A stretch of 45,914 bases of DNA from Bacteroidota bacterium (GCA_020852855.1 JADZAA010000012.1:1-45914), one strand, 5' to 3'. Numbered from the stretch's first letter, positions 14,719-31,557 are shown. Notes: generated by a model from the sequence alone, not told the origin. A program made the numbers and translations.

Positions 14719-17700
14719 TTAGCGACTGATAATCAATTGAGAGCTTGCTGTAAATTGTCCGGCCGAATATAAAATTGTATAAATTCCGGACGGTAGAGCA
14801 GTTGTCGGAACAGTAAAATTATACACGCCTTCGCTTATGGTTGCATCTATCGCTTCTATGGCTGTTCTTCCTAAAGCGTCGTATATTTTAACGGAAACTC
14901 TGCCCGAAAGACCGACTCCTATCGGAATTGTAATTTCATCATTTGACGGTTGCGGATATACTTTACCGAGAAAGTATTGTTTTCCGCCGTGAACAAATCG
15001 TGCCGCACCGAAGCAGATTTGCTCAATCTCGAGCATTGAACCGTTTGTTTCGGGGATAATGCACGGGGCATCGGTCGTTACTTGTAAAGTAATCGCGGCA
15101 GTTGCCTTTTCGCCTAAAAATGCAGAGTAACCAAGTGTAAGTATTTCACCGCTCGGCATTGTTGCCGCACCGCCTGCCGGAACACCGCTGTACGTAGATG
15201 TGTCGCCGTCTGAAAAAACAGACCAATTCCACGCGGGCGATGAGCTATTTATTTTTCCCGATGCTGCCATTTTACGGTCGGCCGTAACTTTAATATTTAT
15301 AGGTGCAATTTCGGGAGCGTTTGAGGCATTTGTAGTTGCTGTTATTTTAAGCGATACATTGTCGCCCGGCTTATATACTATTTTTTTTGGTTCGACATCA
15401 TAGTGTATAATCACACTCTTTCCTTCACCGGAAATCAGCACCGTATATTCCTGATTAAATTCGTCATAAAAATGTAAAGCGGCTGAATATAAGCGTTCTG
15501 CGTCGGGCAAAAATTGCACGGGCAGTACAAGCGTTTTTCCGGCCGGAACAATGGAGTCAGCCGGCAACAGAGCAAAATAAGCCGAATCTGCACCTATTAT
15601 TTCCGTTCTTGAAATTTTCACGTCAATCGAAGCGTCCGGATTGTTTATTGTTATGTTCTGTATAGGTTTATCGCAGAACGGCGTATCGCCGAAATCCAAA
15701 GCAACCGCATCGAGCGAACCGATTTGCAGTCCGTAGCCTACCACATGAACAGTATCTTCAACAATCGGGTCTGCATCAGGGCCGGGTGCGGCATCGGAAT
15801 AAATTTTAATTACAGCCACGCGCCGTCCCCGCTGTATCGGCGAGAAACGAACCGATACGACTGAAGAATCCATGAAACTTTCGGGTATGTCGAAGCGTTG
15901 CAATGTGTTGACCGCTATTGCAAAATCACCCGAATTGCTGATTATTTCAACCTTTTTTACCGCAGTAGCCGATGTCAGGCTTGGATTATGCAAATATATT
16001 TTTCCGGTTTGAGCGGCAGTTCTTCCGACCTCGACCGAACCGAAATTATATCCTTTGGCTTGTATCTGCGGCAATACGCCTTCGCCGCTTAACAATCCGA
16101 TTACAGGCTGTTGCATTTCGGCTATCGAAGCCGTAACATAGTTCATATATTGCAACGTATCTTGCGGATTAAATCGCGTTTGAATAGTGTCGACGGCACC
16201 TGCGGATAAAGTGTATGGCGTTTGCCGGAAAATCGGTATAAAGTTATTCTCCGGTGAATTTCTCAGGGCAAGCGAAACAACTGTCAAAGGTGTTGTGCCT
16301 TTATTCTGCAAATAAATTTGACCTTGATTATCTGTGAGCATTCGCTTTTTGCCCCAGTGCATATTTGTAATCTGTGCTTCTTGTTGCGTTCCAAAGCCTA
16401 CAACAGCCGTATTTGCTGAAACACATTCTCCTTCGGCAAAAAGTTGCGTTGATATCTCTCCTATGCGCGGCGGAGTCATGCGCAGAACAACCGACATACA
16501 ACTGTCCGGCTGAATTTCAAACGGCATCGGCGGAAAAATCACCGTAAAATCTGTAGAATCATTGCCTCGTAATATCACAGACCGTAATGTGGCCGGAACT
16601 TTTTGAGTATTGCAAATCATTGCATCGAAAGTTACGTCCTTACTTATGCCTATATTACTTGCGCCGGCATCGTATTTATTCTGTTTAAACGAAATCATAG
16701 GCCGAACTATCGAAAATACACCGTTGCTTTCGTCGGACGGACTTAACACCCGTCCGTATTTACGCACATAGCCGTCCGCGCTTCCTTTTGTTGTTAGTGT
16801 AGTGTCAGCGTTGCGAAGGGTGGTTCGGAATGCACCGAATTCATATAAGTTGCCTATACTGTCGCGGACGGGTTTTGACGGTTTTATATAACTATTATCC
16901 TGCAAATGCACAGCACGACCGTTATTATCCAAGAGAAGCAAATAGGTTTTGGGGGTTGCAGAGGTTAAATATACGTTTTTACCGTTTGCCAATGTCAATG
17001 TGAAATCGCCGGAATAATTGCCTTCCACAAAGATATTTCCCGTAGAACTGTCAATTCCTACCCGCCGAGCATGAATATCGGCAAACGAGGTTATTTCTTT
17101 TATCCAACGTGTTGAACCGTTAGTTCCGAATTGGCCTACCCATACGGAATGTTTGCCGTTTGTTTGACGAAATATTTCGCCGGAAGCAAGTGCCTCTCCG
17201 GTTTGTTCGTTAATACTTACCGCTATGCCTCGCGATAATGTAAAAGGTGCGAAAGGCTGAAGAAAGGTTGCGCCGGAAACAGCCCAGCGCACTTTACCGA
17301 AGGCAGATTGCGCCAGAAACGCCTCTTCATTACGCGGCGAGGAAATCACAACGGCACCAGTTTTCCCGTTTGGAGGAAAACCTACCGCGACATTCTTATC
17401 GAAACTTCCGGCAAAATACAGCAATGAACCGGAGGAATGTACGCTCGCAGACATAACTGTATCTCGACCCGAACCGGAAACTGCCGCAGGTTGAGAATAA
17501 TCTGTGCGCGGAGTTAACGCGGCCACACGTACCTTGCCGTTAGATATAACGGGAGGTTTTCGCCATATATATTTCATTTGTGCTACATTCGTCGCCAAAA
17601 CTTTCCATAGCAGCGAATTGTTGTCATTGTAATGCAGAACGACCTGATTCGAGGGGTCCACCCCCGACCATTCGACCGTAACGGAGTCGCACGAAGAATA

Positions 17701-18963
17701 TATTTCGCCGCCGTTTGGCGTAATAACCGACACATCAGACGCACCGCTTGCCACTTTGAGCGGAGGCGACGAACAAGGTGAGCCTAATATGACGATTTGC
17801 GCATTGCGAATATCGCGTGGTGCAGTTTGGGTAAATGTAACGGTTAGAGTTCGGGACTGATTTTGCGCCAACGGGAATGGCGGCGGCGTACCGCCCCAAT
17901 CGCTTATTGTAAAATTAGCACTTGGCGTAATTTGAGATCCGGTTACCATAATCGGAGCATTGGAAGCCGTGATTCTATATGTCTGCGTCGAGGTAGAGCC
18001 GGGCGGCCCGTCGGGAAACGGCGGCAGAGATTGCGATGATATGGCAATACCGGCCACCGAATTCGGCGGTGCAATATAGCTGAAGTTCTGGCGGAAATTA
18101 GTCGGACGATGTATTATTTGCACCGCTCTGTTGCGCAATGCCTCGGAGCATACATAAGGTGAAACCCAAGACAGCCAGCAATATGTTACTTCATCGGGGA
18201 CTTGCTCGGCTAATTGGCGATAGAACTGATTTATCAAATCTTGCGTATTGGCACGAAACGTTTCCCCGCCGCTGTCGTGTGCTATAACGGCTAATTCATT
18301 GCTTACTTCACTTGTAATAAAAAGTGCATGCAATATTATTTTCTCGGCAACCAATTGGTTTATGATGGTTTGTTGCGACGGTTTGCTGTTAGGTAGCCCG
18401 TCGGTCAGGAAAACTATCATGCGCTTTATCCACGGCGGCGTGGTTTTCAGCAAAGCAACAGCACCCTTATTGGGGTCAAGAAGCGGCGGGTCATATCGCG
18501 TTGCTCCGCCGGACACGGTTATTTTATCAATAGCAGCAAGCACCGGCACCGGCGATGATTGAAAATTACATTCAATATAAGCATCGCCGTCGAAAGACAC
18601 TACGGCTACTTGTGTGTTTTTATTGAAATCAAGCGATTGAACAAAAGTCTTGGCACCTTGCTTTACCCAGTCGAGTCGTTGCATTCCGTTGCCCATGGGA
18701 GTCGCCATTGATTCACTTTTATCAATTACAAGCACAACGCTGACCGATGGATCGCGAACAACGGTAGAGCATTGAACTGTCAAAGTTGCGTTCATACTTT
18801 GCCCGTTTTCAATTACGTTGAAATCGGACGTTTTGGCATTATTAAAAATAGGACCGCCGCCGTATGCTTTAATGGTCGGATAGCCGGAAGCATCTATACC
18901 GGAAATTTGTGCCGTCGCGATAAATGGCGACAGCAATAAAAGCATGCTTATTATACGAAGCAT
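14719..18963 (-). CDS. Giant VWA / beta-propeller / choice-of-anchor D protein with T9SS C-terminal domain (paralog 1)
   Basis: I choose the ATG at 18963 (or 18969) because a clean signal peptide starts there (MLRIISMLLLLSPFIATAQ). The longer frame from 19047 begins inside a strong hairpin. The mature protein (about 1400 aa) has a VWA domain with intact MIDAS (DKSES, GGATRYD, FLTDG), then an Ig-like module (TPNGGEIYSSCDSVTVEWSG), a repeat region like an SBBP beta-propeller, several ASPM-SPD-2-Hydin / choice-of-anchor D beta domains (the FxPxxxG pattern), a cohesin-like module, and a type A T9SS sorting domain (VYPQPSNDEITIPIG, then LPSGIYTI). It is predicted to be exported and anchored at or released from the cell surface. 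Ligand unknown. It is a tandem paralog of the next gene upstream. Confidence 0.85.
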   Translation of the reverse strand: MLRIISMLLLLSPFIATAQISGIDASGYPTIKAYGGGPIFNNAKTSDFNVIENGQSMNATLTVQCSTVVRDPSVSVVLVIDKSESMATPMGNGMQRLDWVKQGAKTFVQSLDFNKNTQVAVVSFDGDAYIECNFQSSPVPVLAAIDKITVSGGATRYDPPLLDPNKGAVALLKTTPPWIKRMIVFLTDGLPNSKPSQQTIINQLVAEKIILHALFITSEVSNELAVIAHDSGGETFRANTQDLINQFYRQLAEQVPDEVTYCWLSWVSPYVCSEALRNRAVQIIHRPTNFRQNFSYIAPPNSVAGIAISSQSLPPFPDGPPGSTSTQTYRITASNAPIMVTGSQITPSANFTISDWGGTPPPFPLAQNQSRTLTVTFTQTAPRDIRNAQIVILGSPCSSPPLKVASGASDVSVITPNGGEIYSSCDSVTVEWSGVDPSNQVVLHYNDNNSLLWKVLATNVAQMKYIWRKPPVISNGKVRVAALTPRTDYSQPAAVSGSGRDTVMSASVHSSGSLLYFAGSFDKNVAVGFPPNGKTGAVVISSPRNEEAFLAQSAFGKVRWAVSGATFLQPFAPFTLSRGIAVSINEQTGEALASGEIFRQTNGKHSVWVGQFGTNGSTRWIKEITSFADIHARRVGIDSSTGNIFVEGNYSGDFTLTLANGKNVYLTSATPKTYLLLLDNNGRAVHLQDNSYIKPSKPVRDSIGNLYEFGAFRTTLRNADTTLTTKGSADGYVRKYGRVLSPSDESNGVFSIVRPMISFKQNKYDAGASNIGISKDVTFDAMICNTQKVPATLRSVILRGNDSTDFTVIFPPMPFEIQPDSCMSVVLRMTPPRIGEISTQLFAEGECVSANTAVVGFGTQQEAQITNMHWGKKRMLTDNQGQIYLQNKGTTPLTVVSLALRNSPENNFIPIFRQTPYTLSAGAVDTIQTRFNPQDTLQYMNYVTASIAEMQQPVIGLLSGEGVLPQIQAKGYNFGSVEVGRTAAQTGKIYLHNPSLTSATAVKKVEIISNSGDFAIAVNTLQRFDIPESFMDSSVVSVRFSPIQRGRRVAVIKIYSDAAPGPDADPIVEDTVHVVGYGLQIGSLDAVALDFGDTPFCDKPIQNITINNPDASIDVKISRTEIIGADSAYFALLPADSIVPAGKTLVLPVQFLPDAERLYSAALHFYDEFNQEYTVLISGEGKSVIIHYDVEPKKIVYKPGDNVSLKITATTNASNAPEIAPINIKVTADRKMAASGKINSSSPAWNWSVFSDGDTSTYSGVPAGGAATMPSGEILTLGYSAFLGEKATAAITLQVTTDAPCIIPETNGSMLEIEQICFGAARFVHGGKQYFLGKVYPQPSNDEITIPIGVGLSGRVSVKIYDALGRTAIEAIDATISEGVYNFTVPTTALPSGIYTILYSAGQFTASSQLIISR

Positions 18964-19010
18964 TCTCATTCGTAAAGCCGTGAAAACTAATGAAAAAAGA
19001 ATATATGCGT

Positions 19011-19058
19011 AAATAAAACGCAAGGCATCAGCGCAGTAATTGTGCATCCGCCTTGCGT
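19011..19058 (-). terminator. Long-stem hairpin between the two giant paralogs
   Basis: On the minus strand the perfect 9-bp stem ACGCAAGGC/GCCTTGCGT (19058-19050 and 19026-19018) encloses a 23-nt loop and is followed by TTTTATTT. It lies 29 nt past the stop of the 1564-codon gene and upstream of the likely start of the 1442-codon gene. It should end or attenuate transcription between the two. Confidence 0.65.
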
Positions 19059-19087
19059 AATATAGTGATTTTTCCGCAGATTATCGT

Positions 19088-22000
19088 TTAGCGTGCTATA
19101 ACTAACCGCCGTTTTTCTCTATATGCGCCGCTCGACAAAGTATAAAAATATATTCCCGCAGGCAGATCGGATACGTTAAGCGTCATTTCATAGTCGCCGC
19201 TATCATGGTATTTGCTAACCAAAGTTTCAATTTTTTCTCCGATGGAATTGTAAATATCAATTTCGGCTTGCGCTCCTAAACCAACACCATAGCGAATAGT
19301 TACAATATCACGCGCCGGTGTGGGCTGCGCTAACGAAAGTGAATAGGCAGTTTTTCCGGCTGTCAGCAACCGCCCGTCCCGGAAGCATATATTACCCAAT
19401 TTAATCTCGTCGGAGCCTACCGAGGTAATATTCAGGCAGGCGGTCCTGTCCGGTTCAAGAGTTACAGACATTGGAACGGAGGCAGTATCCACAGAACCGA
19501 GATAGTAATCCAGGTCCAGTCGGAACAAAGGTGTATTTATCCCTTTTTGTAATGGCAGACTATTGGGAGTGCCGGTAACGGTAATGGTTTTGCGGTCGGC
19601 AGATATCGCGGCACCCCAATTCCATCCGTTAAGCGGAGTTATACTGCTCAATGCCATTAATTCGGGATTTACGTTAAATTTACAAGTAACTTTGTCAACG
19701 GCCATTGTTCCGAGTTCCTCGCTTAAAGACGACATTACGGTGAGCGGAATGATCTTTCCGGGTTCGGCATCGGTCAATTTTGCTGGATTTGTCGCCAAAT
19801 GCAGATTTGCGTTGATAGCTTTGCCCGCAAGGTTTACATTGCGCGGGCCGATTTTTGCCACGGCGTTGAATGTTCCGGTAGCCGTAGGCAACATAGATAT
19901 TGTAAACGCTGTTGATGAAGCGCGAGGTATGGTTACGGAACCGTTTGGCGAAATAGAGAACTCGTTCGGGTTTGCACCTATCATTGATACGTCTATTGTA
20001 AGCGGAGCCGTGCTGGTGTTCTCATAATTGATAATTACCGACGGCGTTTCGCAAGTATAAATCGTACCGAAATTGATTGTTGTGTCGGGGGCAAAAGCGT
20101 CGCCGCAAACTTCTATTGTATCGCGTCCGGGAACGGCGTTAGAAACGACCTCTATAAGCGAAACTCGCCTTCCGGCATTGTTAGGCTGGAAGCCCAGCTG
20201 AATATTTTGCGTTTCTCCTACGGCAATCGAGCTTTTTTGCGGCGTGGGAGTGAAAAAATCGGACGGACTTGTCAAGATATTTATTGCCGAAATATCTAGC
20301 GTCATTCTGCCGGTATTAGTAATTGCTACGGCATCGTTTTTTGTGGCTATATCGCCGATTCTCGTAAGCGTGAAGCAGTCTTCTTTTAATACGATATGCG
20401 GTAAACATCCGTCGCCTTTCAATACGCTGGATTTTGTAAGCGTAGTAGAGCCTGTAGCCGTTACCGTCAAAGAATCATAATGAGTTCCTTCGGATTTTGG
20501 AGTGAAGGCGACTTGGATATTCTTTGTTTGCCCGGCAGGAACAGTAAATGGCACGGCCGGGCCTATTATTGCAAAGTTTGCGCCTGTTTGTAAACCAATG
20601 GTTGTAACTTGGGCATCCATTGCACCGGTATTATTGATAGCGACATTTTTGATTTCTTGGGAGTCGACACGAACACAATTCCAGACACCTTGCTCAAGTT
20701 CAAAATTGAGCGACTCGAAGCCTTCGCCGTCAATTTGCGTTTGGCGCACTTCGCATATTGAAATAAGTCCGTAATTTAAAAACGCGGTTCGGTCGCCGGC
20801 CGCATCCGGCCTGAACGCCAACTTGACCTTTAGCGGCTGATTAGGATTCAACGTAAAGGCGGGAGATGCAGAGCCGTTAACTTGTTTTATGGTTATATCC
20901 GAAGAGTTCAAGCCGCTTACGCTGACCGTACCGGTAAGAATAAACCGACTTCTGTTTATCAATACGCTGTCGAAGTCCAATTCCGTAGGCGTTGATGTTT
21001 TTACCAATGTTTTCGGGAAATGAATTTGCCGATTCATTTCATAATTGCACGGCTCTACGGCCTCGCTGCATACGGTTATCGTTATATCGGGACTACATTT
21101 TGCTTTGAACGTTACTTTCGAACATTTGCGACCTTCCGAAGTCGGCGAGAAGCGTATCCCCACATTGATATAATCGGAATTTGGCGCAGCCTTCAGTTTC
21201 AGACCCACAAGTGACGTAGAGAGCGAAAACTGCGCATTGTCTTCAAAAACCACATCGGTAATTTCCGTAGGAATATCGCCGCGATTGTAAATTTGGAACG
21301 GTATTGTTAAATCGTTTGTGCCGCCTACGGAAGTTTGGGGTAATTGATACTCGCCGCCGATTTGCTGGTCTGACCATAATTGCGCTTTTGCAATTGTAAA
21401 TGGTGCCGGAGTTACGTCGAAACTTGCCGGAAGTCCGCAAAATTTAGTCAGGAAAACATCGGATCTGCCGCGGCTTACAAGCGTGTTGCCGCCTTTGGTC
21501 AAAGTTGCGGAAAACGAACCTGTTTCATACAGACAGCCCTCTTGGTCAACCGCTGTTTTCGACGTATAAGGCTTGTTGATATAAGGCGTACCTATTTCTA
21601 CGCTGATAAAACTTCCGCTTTCGGTGAATTTAGCGGAAAAATTAGTCCAAACGTTCGGGTCACCGCTAATCAGCATATTGCCGCCGGGGCGGTTAAGTTT
21701 TCCTCGAAATTTTCCTTCCGTATATATAATTTTTTCAACCGGATCGTATGCAATACGAGTTCCGTAAGCCTCGCCCTCCGCATTTGGTCGGGGTCCTAAA
21801 TTTTGAATGGAACTGATAAGCCCGTTTGAGGAAATTTTTGCCAAAAAGAAATTGCGCAAATTCTTTCGGTACGGATTCATCTGGTTGCCGCCGAAAATAG
21901 CATCACCGACGAAATATCCCGTAATATAAGACTCACCGTTTTCGCCCGCCGCAATGCCGTAAGGTACTTCTTCGTTGCCCGGTCCGCCGAAATTCATTGT

Positions 22001-23782
22001 CCATATTATATTACCCGAGCCGTCGTATCGAGCAACAAAGCCGTCTATGGAGTTTCCGGCTGTCATAAAACTTTTGCCGTTGCCGAAGTCAACATTTCCC
22101 TGCGCCGTACCGCAAATGAAAGCGTCTAATCCGTTCTGACTTACCGCTACGCAATGCGAAGAATCCGCTTCCGTTCCGCCGGCTCCTTTAGCCCAAACAT
22201 AAGTTTTTGTAGAGGGAATTGATGCGCGTATTCTGTAAGCAGAGCCTTGCGGAAGTTTTTGTATCTCGCCGCTCGGCCAAACGTATTTATTTCCAGTTGC
22301 GTCCGATTTAATTAAATTCCACGTAGTACCGTTGTCGGTGCTGTATTGCAATATAACCTGCTGCGCCGACGTTACGCCTTCCCAAGTAATTACCATGTCG
22401 TCGCAAGTAGAATATATATTGCCCTCCACAGGTGAGGTCAGCGTAACCGTTGTAATGCCGCCTTTAAGGGAAATCGTAGGCGGATTGCAAGGAGTTACTC
22501 CATTGAACACAACGGTTCCCTGCCTATAGGCCTGTACGCTTGCCTGCGTAAAATCTATATTCCAGACTTTCGGAACTCCGGCTCTCAATGTGTCCGGAAT
22601 AATTAGATTTTTGAAAGCGAATGTTCCGCCCGAATAAGCAATTGCAGGCGCGGCACTAATAATAACGTCATGCGTAGATGTAATAGTAACCGGTTTTGAT
22701 ACCGTACCGTTTGCCGGCGGATTGCCGAAACTGACTACCGGCGGATTTATGGTAAATCGAACAACGCTTTCTTCGGGCGCCAAATACGTTTGTGTTTCCG
22801 TATATTTTTTCTGCGAAGCGTCCATAGGCGGCGGCGTGAACGTAACCTCCACCTTTCGCTCTCGGCTTGCATCGGTGCAGCCGGGCGGTGCCGGCCATTC
22901 AATATAGCAAGCATCGCGGCTTTGCAGTCTGTTTGCTATTTGCTTGTAAATGGCTATAAGTTGCCCTTCAATGTCGCCTGCGGAAACAGAATAAGCACCG
23001 CCGCCGCTTGCATTGGCAAACTCAGCCAAAATCGGATTCATTGCTGTTTGCACCGTAATGGCGAAGAACATTGAATTTGTACCTTTAAGCCCTTTTAATA
23101 TACTGTCCTTGCGAATAGTGTCCAATTTATTGTTTTCACCATCTGTTAGGAATATAACAACTCGTCTGACCGGTAAAGGCGGACGACGTGAAAGCATTGG
23201 AATTGCACCTTTAAGGCTATCGAGTAAAGGAAAGTTATAGCGTGTGTCGCCACCAAGAGAAATACTGTCAATAGCCTTGATAAGTAAACCTTGATTATCT
23301 GTAAAGTCTTGTTCGAGATATGAAATAGCATCGAAAGACACTACTGAAATTGCAGTAGGCGGCACATATTTAACCGCTCTGACAAAAGCTTTTGCAGCTG
23401 TTTTTACGACCTCAAAACGTGTAACGTCCGGATTGCGTCGAACATATTCACCCATCGAGCCGCTTTTATCTATGACAAGCACTACCGAAAGAGCCGGTCC
23501 GTCGACTATTGTCGAACATCTGTGGGTAATCAATGCCTGATCGACGGGAATTCCATTGTCTTTAATCGTAAAATTCTTTTCGGTAATACCGGCTATTTGC
23601 TGCGGCTCGTTCATGCCCACTTGAGTTTGGGCTAAATAATAAGCCCGAACTTTCGGAAATTTATCGGTTTCCGGCCCGTAAAGCGTAAAAGTGGTAACTT
23701 GTGCTTTTATCACTGCCGTAAAGGCGATTAGCACAAGTAAAACAAAATTGATTGCAACGGAAAAAATGGTACTCTTCTTCAT
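19088..23782 (-). CDS. Giant VWA / beta-propeller / choice-of-anchor D protein with T9SS C-terminal domain (paralog 2)
   Basis: The 1564-residue protein has a signal peptide (hydrophobic 9-25, cut after IKA near 27). A VWA domain (about 97-290) has a full MIDAS: Asp105-x-Ser107-x-Ser109, Thr180, Asp214. An all-beta region follows, then an Ig-like module at about 445-525 (TSPVEGNIYSTCDDMVITWE), SBBP-like propeller repeats (about 530-790, each with GFVARYDGSGNIIWTMNF-type strands), several choice-of-anchor D domains (about 820-1310), a cohesin-like module, and a type A T9SS sorting domain (about 1480-1564, LAQPTPARDIVTI then LPAGIYFYTL). MIDAS-type VWA domains bind metal and usually a protein ligand. 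A surface adhesin or matrix component is plausible. The 211-nt leader has a 7-bp inverted repeat (GCCGTTT/AAACGGC, 23810-23833). Confidence 0.87.
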   Translation of the reverse strand: MKKSTIFSVAINFVLLVLIAFTAVIKAQVTTFTLYGPETDKFPKVRAYYLAQTQVGMNEPQQIAGITEKNFTIKDNGIPVDQALITHRCSTIVDGPALSVVLVIDKSGSMGEYVRRNPDVTRFEVVKTAAKAFVRAVKYVPPTAISVVSFDAISYLEQDFTDNQGLLIKAIDSISLGGDTRYNFPLLDSLKGAIPMLSRRPPLPVRRVVIFLTDGENNKLDTIRKDSILKGLKGTNSMFFAITVQTAMNPILAEFANASGGGAYSVSAGDIEGQLIAIYKQIANRLQSRDACYIEWPAPPGCTDASRERKVEVTFTPPPMDASQKKYTETQTYLAPEESVVRFTINPPVVSFGNPPANGTVSKPVTITSTHDVIISAAPAIAYSGGTFAFKNLIIPDTLRAGVPKVWNIDFTQASVQAYRQGTVVFNGVTPCNPPTISLKGGITTVTLTSPVEGNIYSTCDDMVITWEGVTSAQQVILQYSTDNGTTWNLIKSDATGNKYVWPSGEIQKLPQGSAYRIRASIPSTKTYVWAKGAGGTEADSSHCVAVSQNGLDAFICGTAQGNVDFGNGKSFMTAGNSIDGFVARYDGSGNIIWTMNFGGPGNEEVPYGIAAGENGESYITGYFVGDAIFGGNQMNPYRKNLRNFFLAKISSNGLISSIQNLGPRPNAEGEAYGTRIAYDPVEKIIYTEGKFRGKLNRPGGNMLISGDPNVWTNFSAKFTESGSFISVEIGTPYINKPYTSKTAVDQEGCLYETGSFSATLTKGGNTLVSRGRSDVFLTKFCGLPASFDVTPAPFTIAKAQLWSDQQIGGEYQLPQTSVGGTNDLTIPFQIYNRGDIPTEITDVVFEDNAQFSLSTSLVGLKLKAAPNSDYINVGIRFSPTSEGRKCSKVTFKAKCSPDITITVCSEAVEPCNYEMNRQIHFPKTLVKTSTPTELDFDSVLINRSRFILTGTVSVSGLNSSDITIKQVNGSASPAFTLNPNQPLKVKLAFRPDAAGDRTAFLNYGLISICEVRQTQIDGEGFESLNFELEQGVWNCVRVDSQEIKNVAINNTGAMDAQVTTIGLQTGANFAIIGPAVPFTVPAGQTKNIQVAFTPKSEGTHYDSLTVTATGSTTLTKSSVLKGDGCLPHIVLKEDCFTLTRIGDIATKNDAVAITNTGRMTLDISAINILTSPSDFFTPTPQKSSIAVGETQNIQLGFQPNNAGRRVSLIEVVSNAVPGRDTIEVCGDAFAPDTTINFGTIYTCETPSVIINYENTSTAPLTIDVSMIGANPNEFSISPNGSVTIPRASSTAFTISMLPTATGTFNAVAKIGPRNVNLAGKAINANLHLATNPAKLTDAEPGKIIPLTVMSSLSEELGTMAVDKVTCKFNVNPELMALSSITPLNGWNWGAAISADRKTITVTGTPNSLPLQKGINTPLFRLDLDYYLGSVDTASVPMSVTLEPDRTACLNITSVGSDEIKLGNICFRDGRLLTAGKTAYSLSLAQPTPARDIVTIRYGVGLGAQAEIDIYNSIGEKIETLVSKYHDSGDYEMTLNVSDLPAGIYFYTLSSGAYREKRRLVIAR

Positions 23783-23809
23783 ATTCGGACTGCTGTAAAT
23801 TATTGAAAT

Positions 23810-23833
23810 GCCGTTTCTCTGAAATAAAACGGC
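23810..23833. repeat. Inverted repeat in the leader of the 1564-codon gene
   Basis: Arms GCCGTTT and AAACGGC are separated by 10 nt, 28 nt upstream of the ATG. It could fold in the mRNA leader or serve as an operator half-site pair. With 7-bp arms it is only suggestive. Confidence 0.35.
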
Positions 23834-23993
23834 AGGCTACTCACGAATAACTCAAAAGCAACGGAAATGTTACTTAAATGGTTTTTAAATCTAAGATATT
23901 ATTGCAAATGAAAATATGCGATTTGTCACATCCGTGCGGTTTAGTAAACGGATAAGTTGCAAAGGGGTTGAAAGTTGCAATTTATACGTGCCG

Positions 23994-25061
23994 TTACGTC
24001 CTGACAGACGCATCGAGAATAGTGAGAGTTTTCTTTTCGGCATCTAATTCGGCGCGTGCGCCGAGCGGCAGCGTCATTTTACTTTTTACGTGGCCGAACG
24101 GCAGACCGTAAGCCGCCGGTATTCCGAGAGAGGTTATGCGTTGATCCAAAACTTGACGAAGCGTAAAGGATAATTCAACGTCCGATTTTCCTGTTGCTTC
24201 GCAATTCTTGAATTGTCCGAGAGCTACGCCGGCACATTGATGCAGTTTTCCCGCAAGCCAAAGCTGCGTAAGCATACGGTCTATTTTATACGGTTCTTCG
24301 GATACCTCTTCGAGAAAGAGTATTGCTCCCGCCGTGTCTATTTCATAAGGAGTGCCGAGTGTACTTACAACCATAGACAAATTCCCGCCGGTAAGTCGCC
24401 CTGTGGCCGAGCCTTTGCAAAGTGTCAGCAAAGAGTCGTCGGAAACCGAAAGCGACATTTTAGGCACGGCTTCGGTTCCCGAAGCGAACACCGTTTTTAA
24501 GAAGCATTTTGTAGTAAAATCGTCGAATTGCGATGAGGCAACAGGGCCGTGAAAAGTTGTTACGCCGCTTATTTGCTCTACGGCTATCAGCAGAGCTGTA
24601 ATATCGCTGTATCCCATGATGATTTTCGGGTTGCGTCGTATAGCCCCGAAATCGAGCATAGGCAATATGCGCATAACTCCATAGCCTCCGCGTGCGCAAA
24701 GAATTGCATTAATGTCCGGCCGCTCTATAAATTCCATTAATTCCGCCGCACGTACATTGTCGGGCGCAGCCAGATATTTCTGAGATTTGGATATTGCACT
24801 TCCGGTTTCTACGTTAAGTCCGATTGATTTAAGAAAATCTATATTGGATTTAATATCAGACTGATTAACGCCGCTTGCCGGTGCAACAATACCTACGGTA
24901 TCGCCTTTTTTTAATGCAGGCGGCAGAATATTGCCGGGTGCGGACGACTTTTCGGGCGGAATATCGCTGATAATCAAACGACGATCCCTATGGGCAAGTG
25001 CCGTTGCCGCAGTGCCGAAAAATGCGGTTAATGAAGCCAAAAAATGTCGACGTGAAAACAT
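23994..25061 (-). CDS. LD-carboxypeptidase (peptidase S66) with Tat-type signal
   Basis: The 355-residue protein matches the S66 family. A KKGDTVGIVAPAS start (51-63) is followed by CARGGYGVMRIL (122-133), the nucleophile Ser152 in GYSDITALL, HGPV (171-174), GRLTGGNLSMVV (221-232), the acidic FLEEVSEEPYKIDRML (249-264, Glu251 or Glu252 catalytic) and His324 in PFGHVKSK. These enzymes cut the terminal D-Ala from L,D-linked muropeptides during cell-wall recycling. Unlike cytoplasmic LdcA it begins MFSRRHFLASLTAFFG, a twin-arginine signal with SRRHFLA, so it is probably folded first and exported to the periplasm. The gene diverges from the 1248-codon gene, with a perfect palindrome between them. 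Confidence 0.9.
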   Translation of the reverse strand: MFSRRHFLASLTAFFGTAATALAHRDRRLIISDIPPEKSSAPGNILPPALKKGDTVGIVAPASGVNQSDIKSNIDFLKSIGLNVETGSAISKSQKYLAAPDNVRAAELMEFIERPDINAILCARGGYGVMRILPMLDFGAIRRNPKIIMGYSDITALLIAVEQISGVTTFHGPVASSQFDDFTTKCFLKTVFASGTEAVPKMSLSVSDDSLLTLCKGSATGRLTGGNLSMVVSTLGTPYEIDTAGAILFLEEVSEEPYKIDRMLTQLWLAGKLHQCAGVALGQFKNCEATGKSDVELSFTLRQVLDQRITSLGIPAAYGLPFGHVKSKMTLPLGARAELDAEKKTLTILDASVRT

Positions 25062-25148
25062 TTATTTCTGTTTTCGAGAAGTTCTTGAAACCGAATTATA
25101 AGAGCAAACAACCAGCCTGCTACGCGATATATCTTAAAATATAATGAT

Positions 25149-25172
25149 ATTTCCTTGAAATTTCAAGGAAAT
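25149..25172. promoter_or_regulatory. Perfect 24-bp palindrome in a divergent intergenic region
   Basis: ATTTCCTTGAAA is followed at once by its exact reverse complement, with no spacer. It lies 88 nt from the LD-carboxypeptidase start and about 100-260 nt from the start of the plus-strand giant gene. Full twofold symmetry fits a site for a dimeric repressor or activator. With no loop and no T-run it is a poor terminator. Confidence 0.55.
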
Positions 25173-25409
25173 TCGCAAATAATACCAATTACGGACTATA
25201 TTTTAACCGAAAAAATTATGCCTGTTTTTATGAAATTTGCGGCTAATGTCGCTGTCTTGTATCATTTTGCGGCGTAAATGGTTTTTACTGTATCTGCAAC
25301 AGCAAAATTCAATTTTACTTACCGCTTTGTAACTATTTTATTTATATCCGCGTCTATGCCTCGTCGTTTAAAAAAATGTGCAAATTTCAAACGAAACTAT
25401 ATTGAAAAT

Positions 25410-28400
25410 ATGTCATTTGTAATCGTCGCCTTCGGCAAATTGCGCCGTATAATGCCGATATGCGTGCTTGCGTTCTTTCTTTTTTCTAATAACTCTTTGG
25501 CACAGATTGTAGTAGATGCGGCGCAGTTTGGCGGCGGAAATACTGCGGAAGCAAGTGCATACCCCACTCTTTCGGCACGAATTCGCGCTCTACGCAGCGG
25601 CACTCCAATAGTCCTAGCATCGGCAAATATTTTTATTGTTGAGGGTAATCATTGCACGCAACCATTCAAAGTAGAACCGATAAACGATTCATATCAAAAA
25701 ATTTATTGGCATTCACGCTCTCGCGGCATAAGTACGGCATCGCAAATAGTGGTTGTATACGGAAGCGAATCCGACACCGTTGCAATAAAATACTCTCTCG
25801 ACAACGATGTTCAGGTGCGTTTCAGTGATTTTACGGCAACTCCCATGTATAGTCTTTCTTTCGGCAATGTAGTGCCTGGAAAAGACACAACGATACCGAC
25901 TTATGTTTTAGCACGAACAACAAGAGTAGACGCAAATCAACGTTCGGAATCACTTCGTATAGACTCTATAGCCACGCGGACCCGATATTTTTCTTGGGAA
26001 TGGAAGGGCACTCCCATCGTTTCATCGAGGACTCCTCCAACTTATATTCAATCACCGTTTCGCTATCGAATAAATATTACTTTCCGACCGGATGCACCTA
26101 GGTTCTACCGCGATATCTTGACTGTTTATTACGAGGGCGGCGCGGAGGAATACTTCGAGCTGACAGGCAATAGTTTCGATTTGCCGCAGAATACGATATT
26201 AAATATTACGCAACCGAACACACGCCAAAACTTAACGCCTTGCCAAATTGTGGATATTCGCTGGAAAGGAAGCGTCGCCGGTGCGCCTACTTATGTGGAT
26301 TATACCACAGACGGCGGAAGAACCTGGCGAAATATAGGACAAACTCTCGATAGTTCCATTGCTTGGACGATTCCGGCACAATACACAGATTCACTATTGC
26401 TTCGCGCACGGCAGGATTTTGTTAATTTTTCGGAAGTTAATCTGCGGGGCGAAACGGCCGGTGCGTATTCGCTCGGCTATAACGGCGACGGCTCGAATGT
26501 GGCGGTGGCTTATGAAAACGGTAAGGTTATAGAATACGACGCGGCGCAACATACTATTCTGCAAAAGTATGACATTGGCGCGGTCGCATTCCCTATGCAA
26601 AAGGCTTTTTGTTTCGGGATTATTTATACGGACACAAATCGCGTCGCGGCCGGTTTCAGGCGGGCAGACGGAACGCAGGAATTCGACTTTTTCGAGCGTG
26701 GAAATTCCGACCCGGCTTTGACAGCTAAAATTGCCGTACCCGTAAAACTACAACGCTTAGTAGTGGATCCGTCAGGTCAAATCATAATTTGCGTTCCGGA
26801 GTTCGGCAATTCACTATATCTGTTCTCGTCAACAGACGGCTCGCTAATCAAAACTATTTCGTATCCTGCACCTATTACCGCATTCGCACTGAATGCCGAT
26901 GGGAAAGGCGTAATAGCAATGCTTGACGGAACGATTGCGCAAGTTTCCGCACCGGATTTTGCCGTAGCATCGCCCGTGAAATTTTCCGAACTGCCGATTA
27001 TTAACGGGGTTGCTTTATCACCTGACGGACAACTTTGGGGACTTGCCTCAAAAGCGGAATCTTATACCATTTCCAGCGGCGGCAACTCGACAGTGTATAT
27101 TGTGGATATCGCTTCCAAAACCATAATACGAACTTTGCGAAAATCGTCGAGCGACGCACTGAAATTAGCATTTAACGGCACCTCGCGCTATCTTGGGCTC
27201 GGCTATCCGTATCAGCCGCAAATTGCTTTATGGCAAATAGTGAACAACGAGTTTAACGGAGGATTGTCCGGCCATGCAGGGCAAATGACCTCGCTTACTT
27301 ACAGTCCGGACGGCAGAGTTATCGCCACAACCGCTCTTTTGCCGGATAATGTTACGCTGCGAAATTTCAGCTATCCCGAAACCGACATATCCGACGAATT
27401 TATTCGAATAGTTCCGGCAAATATCAACGTTTCCGCAACCGGGTTGAAGCCGAATTATTTGATGAATCGTCGGGACACAATACTGAAAACCACAGTATGC
27501 AACACAGGGGAAGCAGCCGTTATATTCGAAACTGCAAAATTACTCGCAAATAAACATTTTTCATTCGTCAAGCCGATTACTCCGCTCGATACGCTTTTTC
27601 CGGGTGAATGTCTTGATATTTTACTGTCTTTTCAGCCGAAAGATACCGGCTGGACTCGCGATACGATATTGCTGACCTCCTGTTCGCGTCAATTTTCGGC
27701 AGCCGTGTCGGGCTATTCTATGAATCGCTCTATTGATTTTCTTGCCGACGGAATCGAGTTCGGCGAGTCATGTGTGGGCGATTCACTGAAGCGCGAGATT
27801 GATATTCTGCGAAATAACGACCCCGTTCCGCTTGAATTGGACGGTATATCTCCCGAGAACGGATTTACTTCCGGCTTTTCATTTTCGCCGCCATTGCAGA
27901 AAACAGTTTTGCAACCCGGTGAAACGCTGAAAACAACAGTAAAATTTTCTCCTAAAGTCGTAGGCCCAGATGTAAGCAAAATGCTTGTGATGCACAGCAA
28001 TCAAACGTCATATATACCTGCATTTACATTGCGCGGGCGCGGAATAGGCGCAGACGTTGCAATAACTTCCGATATCAGATTTATTCCCGAAATCAGCGCA
28101 CGAACTATATCAATCAAAAATAATTCGCCGAACGACGTAACATTACGCTCAATTTCGATTACTCCCGCATCTGCATTAAGCGTTTCGCCAATGCCGCCGT
28201 TGGTAATCCCTGCAAACGACTCCGTTATCCTGAATATTGCTGTAAATGAACCGCTTGCCGAAAGTGGCACTATGCTCGAAGCAGAGTTTAATCCATGCAT
28301 CGTGAAAAAAATAATTACGGCGGGAGCATATTCCGGTACAAGCAGCGTTTCCGCGCCTATTGTGGAAGCCGACCCTCGTGGCGAAGCGGTTATTCCGATA

Positions 28401-29024
28401 TTATATAAAAACGCAGAGAACAAACCCTATAAAGGCATTAGATTTTTTGAAGGCGAGATAACTTTGAATCCGCGCCTTTTTCTGCCGCTCAGGGCGGAAT
28501 GTGATTACGGGACTGCTACAATTATTCGCAATGAAATTATTGGCGATAAAAGGATTATCGGATTTCGTGCGGAAGGTGATTTTCCTTTGTCCGGTATAGT
28601 GGCAAAACTTATAGGTCCGGCCGGCTTAGCCGAAACAGACCGAACGCCGGTTGATTTTACGACTACGGCACGATATTGGGGAGCAGCTACGCAAACTTCG
28701 ACATCATCAGGCGAATTAAGAATACCGAACACTTGCGATGGTTGCCGAATAATTCATAATAAAACGCTGGCTATACTTGCCGTTGCACCCAATCCTGCAA
28801 GTACCGAAACAATTATAGAATTTTATACGCCGAATGCCGGCGAGTATGTGATTGAAATTCTGAACGAAATCGGAATTTCAATTGTCGAACCGCGCCGCGT
28901 ATATGCAAATGAGGGCATAAATTCCTTCCGCATATCGCTCGGCACACTTCAAACAGGAGCATATCGCACATCGGTACGCGGAGCCGGCGGTACGACTTCA
29001 GCCCCGACAGCGATTATACGTTAA
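25410..29024 (+). CDS. Giant WD40-like / choice-of-anchor D protein with T9SS C-terminal domain
   Basis: The frame is open from 25278 (1248 codons), but a signal peptide (hydrophobic core PICVLAFFLFSNNSLAQ) fits a start at the ATG 25410 (1204 aa) or 25452. The mature protein lacks a VWA head. It has an N-terminal beta region, an Ig-like module matching those of the two VWA proteins (TQPNTRQNLTPCQIVDIRWK), a WD40-like propeller (SPDGQLWGLAS, YSPDGRVIATTA), at least three choice-of-anchor D domains (SFQPKDTGWTRDTI, KFSPKVVGPDVSK), a cohesin-like stretch and a type A T9SS sorting domain (VAPNPASTETIIEFYT, then LQTGAYRTSV). Predicted secreted or surface protein of unknown ligand. Confidence 0.82.
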   Translation: MSFVIVAFGKLRRIMPICVLAFFLFSNNSLAQIVVDAAQFGGGNTAEASAYPTLSARIRALRSGTPIVLASANIFIVEGNHCTQPFKVEPINDSYQKIYWHSRSRGISTASQIVVVYGSESDTVAIKYSLDNDVQVRFSDFTATPMYSLSFGNVVPGKDTTIPTYVLARTTRVDANQRSESLRIDSIATRTRYFSWEWKGTPIVSSRTPPTYIQSPFRYRINITFRPDAPRFYRDILTVYYEGGAEEYFELTGNSFDLPQNTILNITQPNTRQNLTPCQIVDIRWKGSVAGAPTYVDYTTDGGRTWRNIGQTLDSSIAWTIPAQYTDSLLLRARQDFVNFSEVNLRGETAGAYSLGYNGDGSNVAVAYENGKVIEYDAAQHTILQKYDIGAVAFPMQKAFCFGIIYTDTNRVAAGFRRADGTQEFDFFERGNSDPALTAKIAVPVKLQRLVVDPSGQIIICVPEFGNSLYLFSSTDGSLIKTISYPAPITAFALNADGKGVIAMLDGTIAQVSAPDFAVASPVKFSELPIINGVALSPDGQLWGLASKAESYTISSGGNSTVYIVDIASKTIIRTLRKSSSDALKLAFNGTSRYLGLGYPYQPQIALWQIVNNEFNGGLSGHAGQMTSLTYSPDGRVIATTALLPDNVTLRNFSYPETDISDEFIRIVPANINVSATGLKPNYLMNRRDTILKTTVCNTGEAAVIFETAKLLANKHFSFVKPITPLDTLFPGECLDILLSFQPKDTGWTRDTILLTSCSRQFSAAVSGYSMNRSIDFLADGIEFGESCVGDSLKREIDILRNNDPVPLELDGISPENGFTSGFSFSPPLQKTVLQPGETLKTTVKFSPKVVGPDVSKMLVMHSNQTSYIPAFTLRGRGIGADVAITSDIRFIPEISARTISIKNNSPNDVTLRSISITPASALSVSPMPPLVIPANDSVILNIAVNEPLAESGTMLEAEFNPCIVKKIITAGAYSGTSSVSAPIVEADPRGEAVIPILYKNAENKPYKGIRFFEGEITLNPRLFLPLRAECDYGTATIIRNEIIGDKRIIGFRAEGDFPLSGIVAKLIGPAGLAETDRTPVDFTTTARYWGAATQTSTSSGELRIPNTCDGCRIIHNKTLAILAVAPNPASTETIIEFYTPNAGEYVIEILNEIGISIVEPRRVYANEGINSFRISLGTLQTGAYRTSVRGAGGTTSAPTAIIR

Positions 29025-29085
29025 ACAATTCAACATACTGATTTATATAAAACTTACACTAACATTGACTACTTGTGAAAACATT

Positions 29086-29571
29086 ATGAACAATGCCAAA
29101 ATTCGTTTAATTGCCGCTGTTTTCGGACTGTTTTTCATGGCCGCCGCTCTTATCGCCGACGACAAGAGTGCAACAAAGTCAAAAAAGCCTGAAAACTATG
29201 GTGCCAAGCCTACATTAACAACCCCACCGCTTTCATTGTTGCAGATAGCAAAGGAAAAAAATACAGGTAAATATATTCGACTTTCGGCGCAAGTTGATGA
29301 GGTTTGCCAAAGCATGGGTTGCTGGCTTATAGTAAAAGAAGGCGACATTATGTTGCGCATAAAGACAAAAGACCACAACTTCTTTGTTCCTAAGAACATA
29401 GCAGGCAGAACAGTAATTGTGGAAGGAATTGTAGAGGAGCAGATTATTGCCGAGGAGTTAGCCCGACATTATGCCGAAGATGCCGGAAAAACCGCCGAAG
29501 AAATAGAAGCAATACGCGGCGAGCAGAAAGAATTATCCATGATAGCAAGTTCGATAGCGGTAATGCCTTAA
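29086..29571 (+). CDS. Secreted DUF4920-domain protein
   Basis: I take the ATG at 29086 (161 aa) over an upstream TTG at 29065, because MNNAKIRLIAAVFGLFF starts a normal signal peptide with a cut after about ALIA. The mature protein matches DUF4920, an OB-fold-like domain: VDEVCQSMGCWLIV, NFFVPKNIAGRTVIVEG, ELARHYAEDAGKTAEEIEAI. The two Cys in VCQSMGCW and the RHYAEDAG segment are conserved features of the family, whose function is unknown, though metal or redox-related roles have been suggested from the Cys pair. It lies 61 nt after the giant gene and 45 nt before the OmpA gene on the same strand. Confidence 0.8.
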   Translation: MNNAKIRLIAAVFGLFFMAAALIADDKSATKSKKPENYGAKPTLTTPPLSLLQIAKEKNTGKYIRLSAQVDEVCQSMGCWLIVKEGDIMLRIKTKDHNFFVPKNIAGRTVIVEGIVEEQIIAEELARHYAEDAGKTAEEIEAIRGEQKELSMIASSIAVMP

Positions 29572-29616: not shown

Positions 29617-31557
29617 ATGAAATCTATCGATAGAAATATATATTATTTTGCGGTGGCATTTGTTGCCGTATTTATGCTGTTCGGTACAAATTCCGCAGCG
29701 GCTCAATCGGTTGAGCGTGCGCTTTTGCCTTTTACAGTTACGGCATATTCGGGCGTAAATCTGAATATGCATAACGCAGATTTTTTTGCCGTACCGGGTT
29801 TTGGCGGCTACGGCTCAAACTTTACCGATGGTTTCGGATTTGGAGCGGCGGCTGGGATAGGATCGGAATATTTTCCGAAAGCGCGGCTTTTCGGAATGGA
29901 ATATCGTGTGGGCGGCTTACTTCTGTTTTCCACACTTTCCGGCAACTTGGAAAAGCAGGATTTTATAGGTAACGTAATACAAAACAACAGCGCGAGCAAG
30001 GCTTTAGTTCAAACTTCGGTAAATGCTTCGCTGTCCGCCGCTTTAGTCGAACCGTATATCGCAATGTACCCTTTCGGCAATTTGCCGGTTGCGGTAAAAA
30101 TCGGAATGCAAATAGGACTTCCGCTTTCCGCTACAATGACGCGGCACGAAAAACTTATTTCTCCCGAAGGCGTAAATTTTGAAACGGGCAACCGCATACG
30201 CAATGAAAAAACAGGCGATATACCCGGTAAATCATCGCTTTACACCGCCGCAGCAGTCGCCTTGCGCTACGAAATGCCGCTTAGCCGAACCACAGCTCTT
30301 ATGCCCGAAGCAATTTTCTCGTTAGCATTAAACGATATAGCATCGTCTTTGTCGTGGAAAACGAATGTTATGCGTGCAGGACTAACGTTCGCTTACCGTC
30401 CGGCCGAACCTGCTCCTTACGTTCCGCCGCCGCCGCTACCGCCGCCGCCCGCACCAAAAGAAAAAATCTTAAAATTGGCAGCAGGATTGCGAATTAACGG
30501 AACAGTTTATTTCGACGGACAAACTATCACCGTTCCTATGCGGGAAACTCGCGTTGTAACGCGATATTCCATTGCTCCCGTAATATATTTCGCGCCTCAT
30601 TCCGACATAATATCCGCAGAAAACGAATCCGCATATTTACCGAATAAACAGCCGCCTGCCATTGGGGCCGTTGCTGATTATTTACGTGCCAACCCTACGT
30701 CAAAACTTACGATTACGGCGTATTATGCCGATGATGAAACACCGGAAACAGCACGGAAACGAGGCAAGGCTATAGTTGAAGCATTGCGGCGCAATACTGC
30801 GGATTTTGGCAATATATCCGTGATTCAAGGCGAATTTCCGCTTAAAATGCAGCGGCCGGATATGCGCGAAGAAATGAGGCGCGTTACGTTTGAAATAAAC
30901 GGCAAGCCAATTATATTTCCTTCCGCGAAAACAGAGAAAATAACAGTTCAGGCCGATGATGTAACCGTAGAAGCAAAGCCCGACTTTTCTGCAAGCGAGT
31001 TACCTGCTGCCATAACGGGAGAATTGCGCTTCGGCGGAAAAAAGGTTGCAAATTTAGAGCAATCTGTTACGAAATACACGATAAATTTACAAGAATTGAC
31101 AAATAACAACGCTTCAAAGACAATTTCGGCCGAATACACATTGCGAGATGCTGAGGGCGGCACGAAAACTACTGCAATACGTGCCAATATTCAGATTGCG
31201 CCCGCGATGTTAACGGAAATTGTAAATCTTGATAAATCAGGTGATTACGAACAATATATTCTTGGATATTTTGATTTTGACGGTACGGAATTTTCTTCGG
31301 TCGACTCGTTCTCGGCAGAGCGCGTACGCACTGCATTGCAAAGCGGAAAGTCGGTGGAGATTATCGGCTTGACCGACGACCTCGGTACAGAAGAATACAA
31401 CAAAAAACTTGCACGGCAACGTGTAATGTCGGCATTGAAACTATTGTCTGCAGCCGAGAATCGTGTAACTTCAACAATTCTTGCACCCGTATTTCCACGG
31501 AACCAAACGCCGAACAGCCGAACACTCAATCGTTCGGTTGTGGTACGAGTGCGTTAA
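29617..31557 (+). CDS. OmpA-family outer-membrane protein with two OmpA-like modules
   Basis: The 646 residues begin with a signal peptide (cut after SAAAQ near 30) and an N-terminal beta-barrel (about 38-260). A Pro-rich spacer (about 264-280, VPPPPLPPPPAPKEK) follows. A first OmpA-like module (about 315-430, YFAPHSDIISAENESAYL, then ITAYYADDETPETARKRGK) lacks the canonical peptidoglycan-binding signature. An Ig-like stretch (about 445-535) comes next, and then a second module (about 545-646) that keeps it: TDDLGTEEYNKKLARQRV, with Asp587 and the trailing Arg expected to bind diaminopimelate. It should link the outer membrane to peptidoglycan. The barrel resembles the protein at 5593. It is followed by a MarR gene. 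Confidence 0.85.
   Translation: MKSIDRNIYYFAVAFVAVFMLFGTNSAAAQSVERALLPFTVTAYSGVNLNMHNADFFAVPGFGGYGSNFTDGFGFGAAAGIGSEYFPKARLFGMEYRVGGLLLFSTLSGNLEKQDFIGNVIQNNSASKALVQTSVNASLSAALVEPYIAMYPFGNLPVAVKIGMQIGLPLSATMTRHEKLISPEGVNFETGNRIRNEKTGDIPGKSSLYTAAAVALRYEMPLSRTTALMPEAIFSLALNDIASSLSWKTNVMRAGLTFAYRPAEPAPYVPPPPLPPPPAPKEKILKLAAGLRINGTVYFDGQTITVPMRETRVVTRYSIAPVIYFAPHSDIISAENESAYLPNKQPPAIGAVADYLRANPTSKLTITAYYADDETPETARKRGKAIVEALRRNTADFGNISVIQGEFPLKMQRPDMREEMRRVTFEINGKPIIFPSAKTEKITVQADDVTVEAKPDFSASELPAAITGELRFGGKKVANLEQSVTKYTINLQELTNNNASKTISAEYTLRDAEGGTKTTAIRANIQIAPAMLTEIVNLDKSGDYEQYILGYFDFDGTEFSSVDSFSAERVRTALQSGKSVEIIGLTDDLGTEEYNKKLARQRVMSALKLLSAAENRVTSTILAPVFPRNQTPNSRTLNRSVVVRVR

Follow-up and report, generated by a model that had tools for sequence, protein, structure and literature searches.

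How cargo of the type IX secretion system (T9SS) is fixed to the cell surface is an active question. Cargo with a type A C-terminal sorting domain (CTD) is thought to be fixed to anionic lipopolysaccharide (A-LPS) via PorU, and type B cargo to PorP/SprF barrels. The anchoring of type B cargo by PorP/SprF barrels has been described together with PorE, which adds an OmpA link to peptidoglycan (PMC9143113); cognate cargo and barrel genes are often neighbours (PMC12618676), 9 of the 12 type B genes of F. johnsoniae adjoining an SprF-like gene (PMC9143113, PMC12618676), and SprF is connected to GldK by a disulfide link (PMC12635249). An anchor of the OmpA kind has been suggested before, for Fibrobacter succinogenes, in which OmpA-family proteins were proposed to tie surface complexes, including T9SS-exported enzymes, to peptidoglycan; in the sections of that source that deal with the idea, it rests on abundance and proteomics, together with TPR and fibro-slime proteins, and no gene pairing or fusion is described (PMC6851124). 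Here we analysed, through its sequence and predicted structures, a contig of a Bacteroidota bacterium (GCA_020852855.1 JADZAA010000012.1:1-45914; the whole 45,914-nt stretch is referred to as the window) that encodes three giant proteins, P1, P2 and P3, and an OmpA-family protein, OmpA646, downstream of P3. The pairing of giant and OmpA genes points to a mode of attaching giant surface proteins to the cell that had not been recognised before: with a probability that we put roughly at 0.55, giants carrying WD40 propellers are type A cargo with dedicated barrel-OmpA partners that tie them to peptidoglycan. The giants and the genes of the P3 operon are as follows.

14719-19047, minus strand: P1, a giant of 1442 aa with a VWA domain (18148-18828), an anchor-D domain, an immunoglobulin (Ig)-like module (17533-17733), an SBBP propeller (16732-17478), four anchor-D domains (15421-16686), a cohesin-like part (15013-15387) and a type A CTD (14728-14961).
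19088-23782, minus strand: P2, a giant of 1564 aa and tandem paralogue of P1, with a VWA domain (22877-23578), an Ig-like module (22274-22447), an SBBP propeller (21416-22201), five anchor-D domains (19817-21349), a cohesin-like part (19385-19795) and a type A CTD (19097-19327).
25278-29024, plus strand: P3, a giant of 1248 aa with a head prefix lacking VWA, an anchor-D domain (25935-26171), an Ig-like module (26199-26399), a WD40 propeller (26415-27371), further anchor-D (27447-28241), a cohesin-like part (28341-28736) and a type A CTD (28782-29009).
29065-29571, plus strand: DUF4920 protein, between P3 and OmpA646; not at this place in the other loci examined.
29617-31557, plus strand: OmpA646, with a signal, a predicted eight-stranded barrel (29731-30399), a Pro-rich linker, OmpA-like domain 1 (30565-30900), an Ig-like sandwich (30904-31236) and OmpA domain 2 (31237-31554).

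As in SprB-SprF and PG1035-PorP-PorE, the gene of a T9SS surface protein lies here beside that of a dedicated outer-membrane barrel, and in PG1035-PorP-PorE an OmpA domain provides the link to peptidoglycan, as we propose for this locus; the differences from SprB-SprF/PorP are the type A CTD, the eight-stranded OmpA-type barrel, and the presence of barrel and peptidoglycan-binding domains in one polypeptide. The OmpA/OprF family shares with OmpA646 the eight-stranded barrel and the C-terminal peptidoglycan-binding domain, to which OmpA646 adds a second OmpA-like domain, an Ig-like sandwich, many paralogues and a systematic pairing with T9SS cargo. By analogy, the giant-OmpA system would thus work like PorP/SprF plus PorE but is built differently and does not belong to that system. 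As far as the searched literature shows, the systematic gene pairing and the fusion described below are new; it yielded nothing that links anchor-D proteins to T9SS, and T9SS in Kapaibacteria is mentioned there in passing only.

Orthologues of P3 were present in 40 of the 61 searched genomes of the order Kapaibacteriales, from which the window very probably originates because the named relatives matched by the orthologue scan are annotated as Candidatus Kapaibacterium, Kapabacteria and Ignavibacteria metagenome-assembled genomes; outside the order, in a class sample, P3 matches were partial only. P3 and OmpA646 adjoined in 31 of these 40 genomes (28 downstream, 3 upstream, the latter all in family f5), a count obtained by matching coordinate tables by eye in mostly draft assemblies. 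Loci were taken from ranked hit lists with no random draw; among the named ones, OmpA646 came directly after P3 in 13 of 14, with gaps of -38 to +71 nt and a common overlap of stop and start codons. Giants were typed with local hidden Markov models (HMMs) seeded from P1, P2 and P3 and iterated on relatives; for the 95 giants with enough downstream DNA, an OmpA partner followed 19 of 25 P3-type, 11 of 40 VWA+WD40, 1 of 28 SBBP and 1 of 2 other giants, and adjacency or fusion was associated with propeller type (Fisher P=4e-8, uncorrected for relatedness). The relationship was also seen from the other side: when 20 other OmpA646-family genes were fetched irrespective of their neighbours, 16 had a CTD gene as immediate same-strand neighbour, the expectation being about 2-4 of 20 if 4-10% of genes encode a CTD (gene number assumed). 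Furthermore, the trees of giants and OmpA partners agreed (Mantel r=0.78, 27 pairs, 0/5000), P3-linked and VWA-linked partners falling in matching groups, although this correlation is uncorrected for shared species history, which contributes.

The strongest indication that giant and OmpA protein act jointly is their fusion. Twelve giants with the VWA-Ig-WD40-anchor-D architecture lack a CTD and end in C-termini that match OmpA models; every one of them comes from a family f8 genome. The fused tails align to residues ~296-646 of OmpA646, that is, to the OmpA-Ig-OmpA half with no barrel (hhalign 99.9%, E=2.7e-34), and one shorter fused giant matches the last OmpA646 domain only. CTD and OmpA domains were mutually exclusive across the giants, with a CTD in 83 of 102, OmpA domains in 12 and both in none; the gene order giant to OmpA is the order needed for fusion by deletion. 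PorE (PG1058) likewise joins a propeller to an OmpA domain; it is, however, a TPR-containing lipoprotein and a T9SS component, whereas the giants have VWA, Ig and anchor-D domains and no TPR was seen in them.

These results bear on the view that the giants are type A cargo of the ordinary kind, which PorU anchors to lipopolysaccharide or which is released, and that OmpA genes are their neighbours only through common control of abundant envelope genes. Such a view accommodates the type A CTDs and the presence of PorU and PorV, yet it sits poorly with the near-zero gene spacing, the 16 of 20 in the reverse test, the matched partner clades and the 12 loci in which giant and OmpA half are fused, and we consider it unlikely. 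Several observations nevertheless weigh against a dedicated anchor, some of them favouring ordinary cargo directly. PorV normally picks up type A cargo and PorU attaches it to A-LPS, which could make a second anchor redundant. The nine exceptions to adjacency comprise seven genus g2 genomes, G031 and G058; in G058, P3 runs off the contig end, but all seven g2 genomes have P3 with no adjoining OmpA646 and G031 carries OmpA646 on another contig, so that the partner is not strictly required nearby and P3 can persist without its usual neighbour. In the window itself, the DUF4920 gene interrupts the P3-OmpA646 operon, and OmpA646 no longer has a Cys-Cys pair that 14 of 17 relatives retain (see below). 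SBBP giants such as P1 and P2 lack an OmpA partner of this kind, and the domain HMMs used for typing derive from the same loci that they type. In five family f2 loci (L216, L217, L223, L227 and L228), a VWA-WD40 giant is flanked by two barrel-OmpA genes.

The structure predicted for OmpA646 is consistent with an anchoring role. Its AlphaFold2 model (predicted local distance difference test, pLDDT, 81.8) has eight long barrel strands, and the modelled barrel aligns with E. coli OmpA (Z=17.0, root mean square deviation 2.9, 167 aligned), while the two predicted OmpA domains resemble Pal/OmpA (Z=13-14), the C-terminal one also matching PF00691 (E=2.5e-7). Among the partner proteins compared, D587 and R602, 15 residues apart, are invariant (17/17); we take them to be the diaminopimelate-binding Asp/Arg pair, with the same spacing as D271/R286 of A. 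baumannii OmpA. Loop 1 of the barrel (residues 56-70), predicted to be its first outer loop, carries a vicinal Cys-Cys (PNCC) in 14 of 17 partners, including the copy on contig C42 of the source genome; no P3 cysteine that co-varies with this pair, as a disulfide link of the SprF-GldK kind would leave, was found.

A barrel encoded next to its cargo could also be a cargo-specific carrier that takes the giant from the SprA translocon instead of PorV, as SprF does for SprB, anchoring being secondary. The cognate gene pairing does resemble that of type B cargo with SprF/PorP (PMC12618676), and the PorP/SprF family is unrecognised in the order; type A CTDs are, however, handled by PorV, which is present, and the eight-stranded OmpA-type barrel differs from the 14-stranded FadL type of PorV/PorP (PMC9143113), which makes a carrier very unlikely in our estimate. 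OmpA646 as a PorP/SprF protein was rejected because it matches no model of that family and has eight modelled strands rather than the 14 of the FadL type. No PorP/SprF protein (TIGR03519) scored above cut-off in the source genome, in 31 genomes of the order or in the class members sampled, whereas the same model was positive in 13 of 61 genomes of a phylum sample; type B CTDs (TIGR04131) were above cut-off in 0 of 61 order genomes, the model having been run without a positive control. A wider proposition, which we regard as evenly poised, is that Kapaibacteriales, in which PorP/SprF and type B CTDs are not recognisable, evolved a system of their own in parallel: throughout the lineage, proteins with barrel, OmpA, Ig and OmpA parts in a single chain would serve as cognate anchors that couple individual type A giants to peptidoglycan, with several pairs per genome.

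For the anchoring by dedicated partners, we envisage the following arrangement. A giant would consist of an optional binding head, a VWA domain bearing a MIDAS site, on a platform of Ig module and propeller, followed by a stalk of anchor-D and cohesin-like parts and then by the sorting domain; giants of the WD40 type, and P3 in particular, would have their own outer-membrane partner, whose gene shares their operon. Export would proceed through Sec and then SprA-PorV, as expected from the CTD and known T9SS biology. Once exported, the giant would dock on the partner's eight-stranded barrel at its outer face, and peptidoglycan would be gripped by the OmpA domains of the same partner; the giant would thereby be fixed mechanically to the cell wall. 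At the level of sequence, the shared scaffold, operon, co-inheritance, fusion and kept peptidoglycan-binding residues can be read directly, and the barrel and OmpA folds are predicted by modelling; from operon, fusion, co-inheritance and domain content we infer the docking of giant on OmpA protein and the tethering to peptidoglycan in the cell, and adhesion would fall to the VWA domain. In family f8, the giant would no longer leave the periplasm, CTD and barrel would both be dispensable, and giant and OmpA half would form one polypeptide. The fused forms, with OmpA domains and no CTD, imply that the f8 scaffold stays in the periplasm, and this cautions against viewing the scaffold as an external adhesin only. 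If the anchoring is true, type A cargo held by a peptidoglycan-binding outer-membrane protein, with natural fusions, would be a third arrangement, one that makes a clear prediction to be examined by multimer modelling or with a reporter in an established T9SS host. It would also suggest what a large family of otherwise anonymous OmpA proteins, and the giant propeller proteins, might do in uncultivated Bacteroidota.

The three giants share one scaffold. Local HMMs place their modules in the collinear order VWA, anchor-D, Ig, propeller, 2-5 anchor-D, cohesin-like part and CTD; P1 and P2 are paralogues from end to end (25% over 1058 aa, E=3e-71), and P3 is detectably related to P2 (E=3e-13) and P1 (E=2e-4). 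Pfam/NCBIfam matched VWA in P1 and P2, WD40 in P3, anchor-D/ASH and Por_Secre_tail in all three, and SBBP in P2 (E=5.8e-8) and weakly in P1. The AlphaFold2 model of P3 (pLDDT 84.7) was matched to WD40 chains, that is, in its propeller region, with Z about 31 over 291-298 residues. The top Foldseek matches of P3, to chains of the ciliary central apparatus (HYDIN-type Ig arrays and propellers), had very low template-modelling scores and reflect shared repeat folds; we discarded such kinship. An earlier note on this DNA, whose interval ended at 29024 and so did not take up OmpA646 and LdcA (see below), the most informative part, had listed these modules in three proteins; the open reading frames are real, and both database and local models bear the modules out. 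The label 'cohesin-like' is a weak one, as 2 of 16 members match Pfam Cohesin (best E=2.7e-6) and the top PDB sequences are cohesins with E=0.15-0.56. Its Ig module is indeed one alignable unit in P1, P2 and P3, with an Asp-box-like S-x-D-x-G-x-T-W and weak Pfam matches to Reelin subrepeat, Big_7 and Asp-box only; the motif TxPxxxxxYxxCxxxxIxW given as common to all is exact in P2 only, P1 having ITP..V.W and P3 having L for Y.

The complete MIDAS sites (DxSxS, T, D) noted for two VWA domains are present in P1 and P2, and 72 of 76 relatives also have them; P3 has neither VWA nor MIDAS. The matrix or adhesion system suggested by the earlier note is a candidate role for the giants, to the extent that conserved MIDAS sites speak for binding. 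P3 had been credited with a different head, and this does not hold: its N-terminus aligns to the segment preceding VWA in other giants (hhalign 96.3%, E=1.9e-9) and its pre-Ig domain, the first anchor-D, to the segment following it (hhalign 96.7%, E=3.2e-10). The VWA therefore behaves as a cassette, present or absent at a fixed place, and the notion of one scaffold with interchangeable modules stands on sequence comparison insofar as VWA occurs with either propeller type or is missing, but heads are not swapped. With its conserved MIDAS, the VWA is likely the ligand-binding part, given the intact sites and the analogy with P. gingivalis Mfa5, a T9SS-targeted surface protein that also joins a full-MIDAS VWA to Ig-like domains; Mfa5 is a fimbrial tip subunit, and the description seen gives it no propeller or anchor-D stalk (PMC7835359). 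In one giant of the source genome (L092, C82:1056-5608), whose contig also carries sprA about 8 kb away, the MIDAS is degenerate (DSASD), and the next protein is a 261-aa barrel with no OmpA domains. In one P3 orthologue (L074), C741 and C778 are lost jointly, which suggests a disulfide between them; the four other P3 cysteines are invariant.

Nor is the family local, as had been thought. At least seven scaffold members are encoded in the source genome, where P1 and P2 have SBBP propellers and four other giants (contigs C124, C29, C42 and C82) have WD40 propellers in the same module order, the cohesin-like part being matched by local HMMs in only some of these four. Orthologues of P2 and P3 occur throughout the order, those of P2 being full-length across most families, and the P1-P2 tandem recurs in several genomes. 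Next to the giants, the window contains the following genes.

23994-25061, minus strand: LdcA, an S66 LD-carboxypeptidase with a twin-arginine (Tat-like) N-terminus (Peptidase_S66 match).
32133-33893, minus strand: PD40-repeat protein, with a partial match to the PorE-family model in its propeller part.
35171-36247, minus strand: PorV, carrier of type A T9SS cargo (Pfam PorV, E=1e-26).
36299-40324, minus strand: PorU sortase (NCBIfam T9SS_sortase, E=3e-239).

The window thus holds two divergent conserved modules, LdcA-P2-P1 and P3-(DUF4920)-OmpA646, each with a giant and a cell-wall protein and both a few kb from the PorE-like gene, porV and porU. Of about 21 P2 loci from different parts of the order, 17 have an LdcA gene immediately upstream of P2. 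LD-carboxypeptidases of the S66 kind are usually regarded as cytoplasmic; the twin-arginine motif in 16 of 17 copies suggests export by the twin-arginine translocation (Tat) route. This partner of P2, like the fused f8 giants that should stay periplasmic with their OmpA domains and no CTD, would suit a device for envelope integrity or for sensing, placed between the outer membrane and the wall, rather than an adhesin system; propeller/anchor-D and OmpA parts would act together, either in the periplasm or at the face of the outer membrane, and the VWA would recognise a ligand of wall or membrane. We hold this to be distinctly improbable in view of the CTDs in 83 of 102 giants, which T9SS export takes outside, and of the MIDAS conservation, which fits external ligand binding.

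T9SS routing of P1, P2 and P3, claimed from the start, appears well supported by sequence. The CTD models (TIGR04183/PF18962) scored above cut-off for P1 (31-38 bits) and P2 (27-39 bits); P3 remained below it (18-21 bits), and 14 of 17 P3 orthologues match. All three N-termini are hydrophobic and end in A-Q, as judged by eye. The source genome has 99 CTD matches, and its T9SS genes include, besides PorU and PorV in the window, SprA and PorZ elsewhere. PorZ, a surface T9SS component, combines propellers with a CTD as the giants do; P3 is not its equivalent, since PorZ is encoded separately (contig C132, above cut-off, and in most relatives) and P3 has no match to NCBIfam NF052228. In two genus g2 genomes, which have no OmpA646 by P3, a barrel-OmpA family gene lies directly after porZ (G001:C13 and G013:C343). 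The PD40 protein near porV and porU shows partial similarity to the PorE and CHU_0125 families, and a second PorV-like protein, 28% identical to PorV, is encoded near the C124 giant of the source genome (locus L089, position 2).

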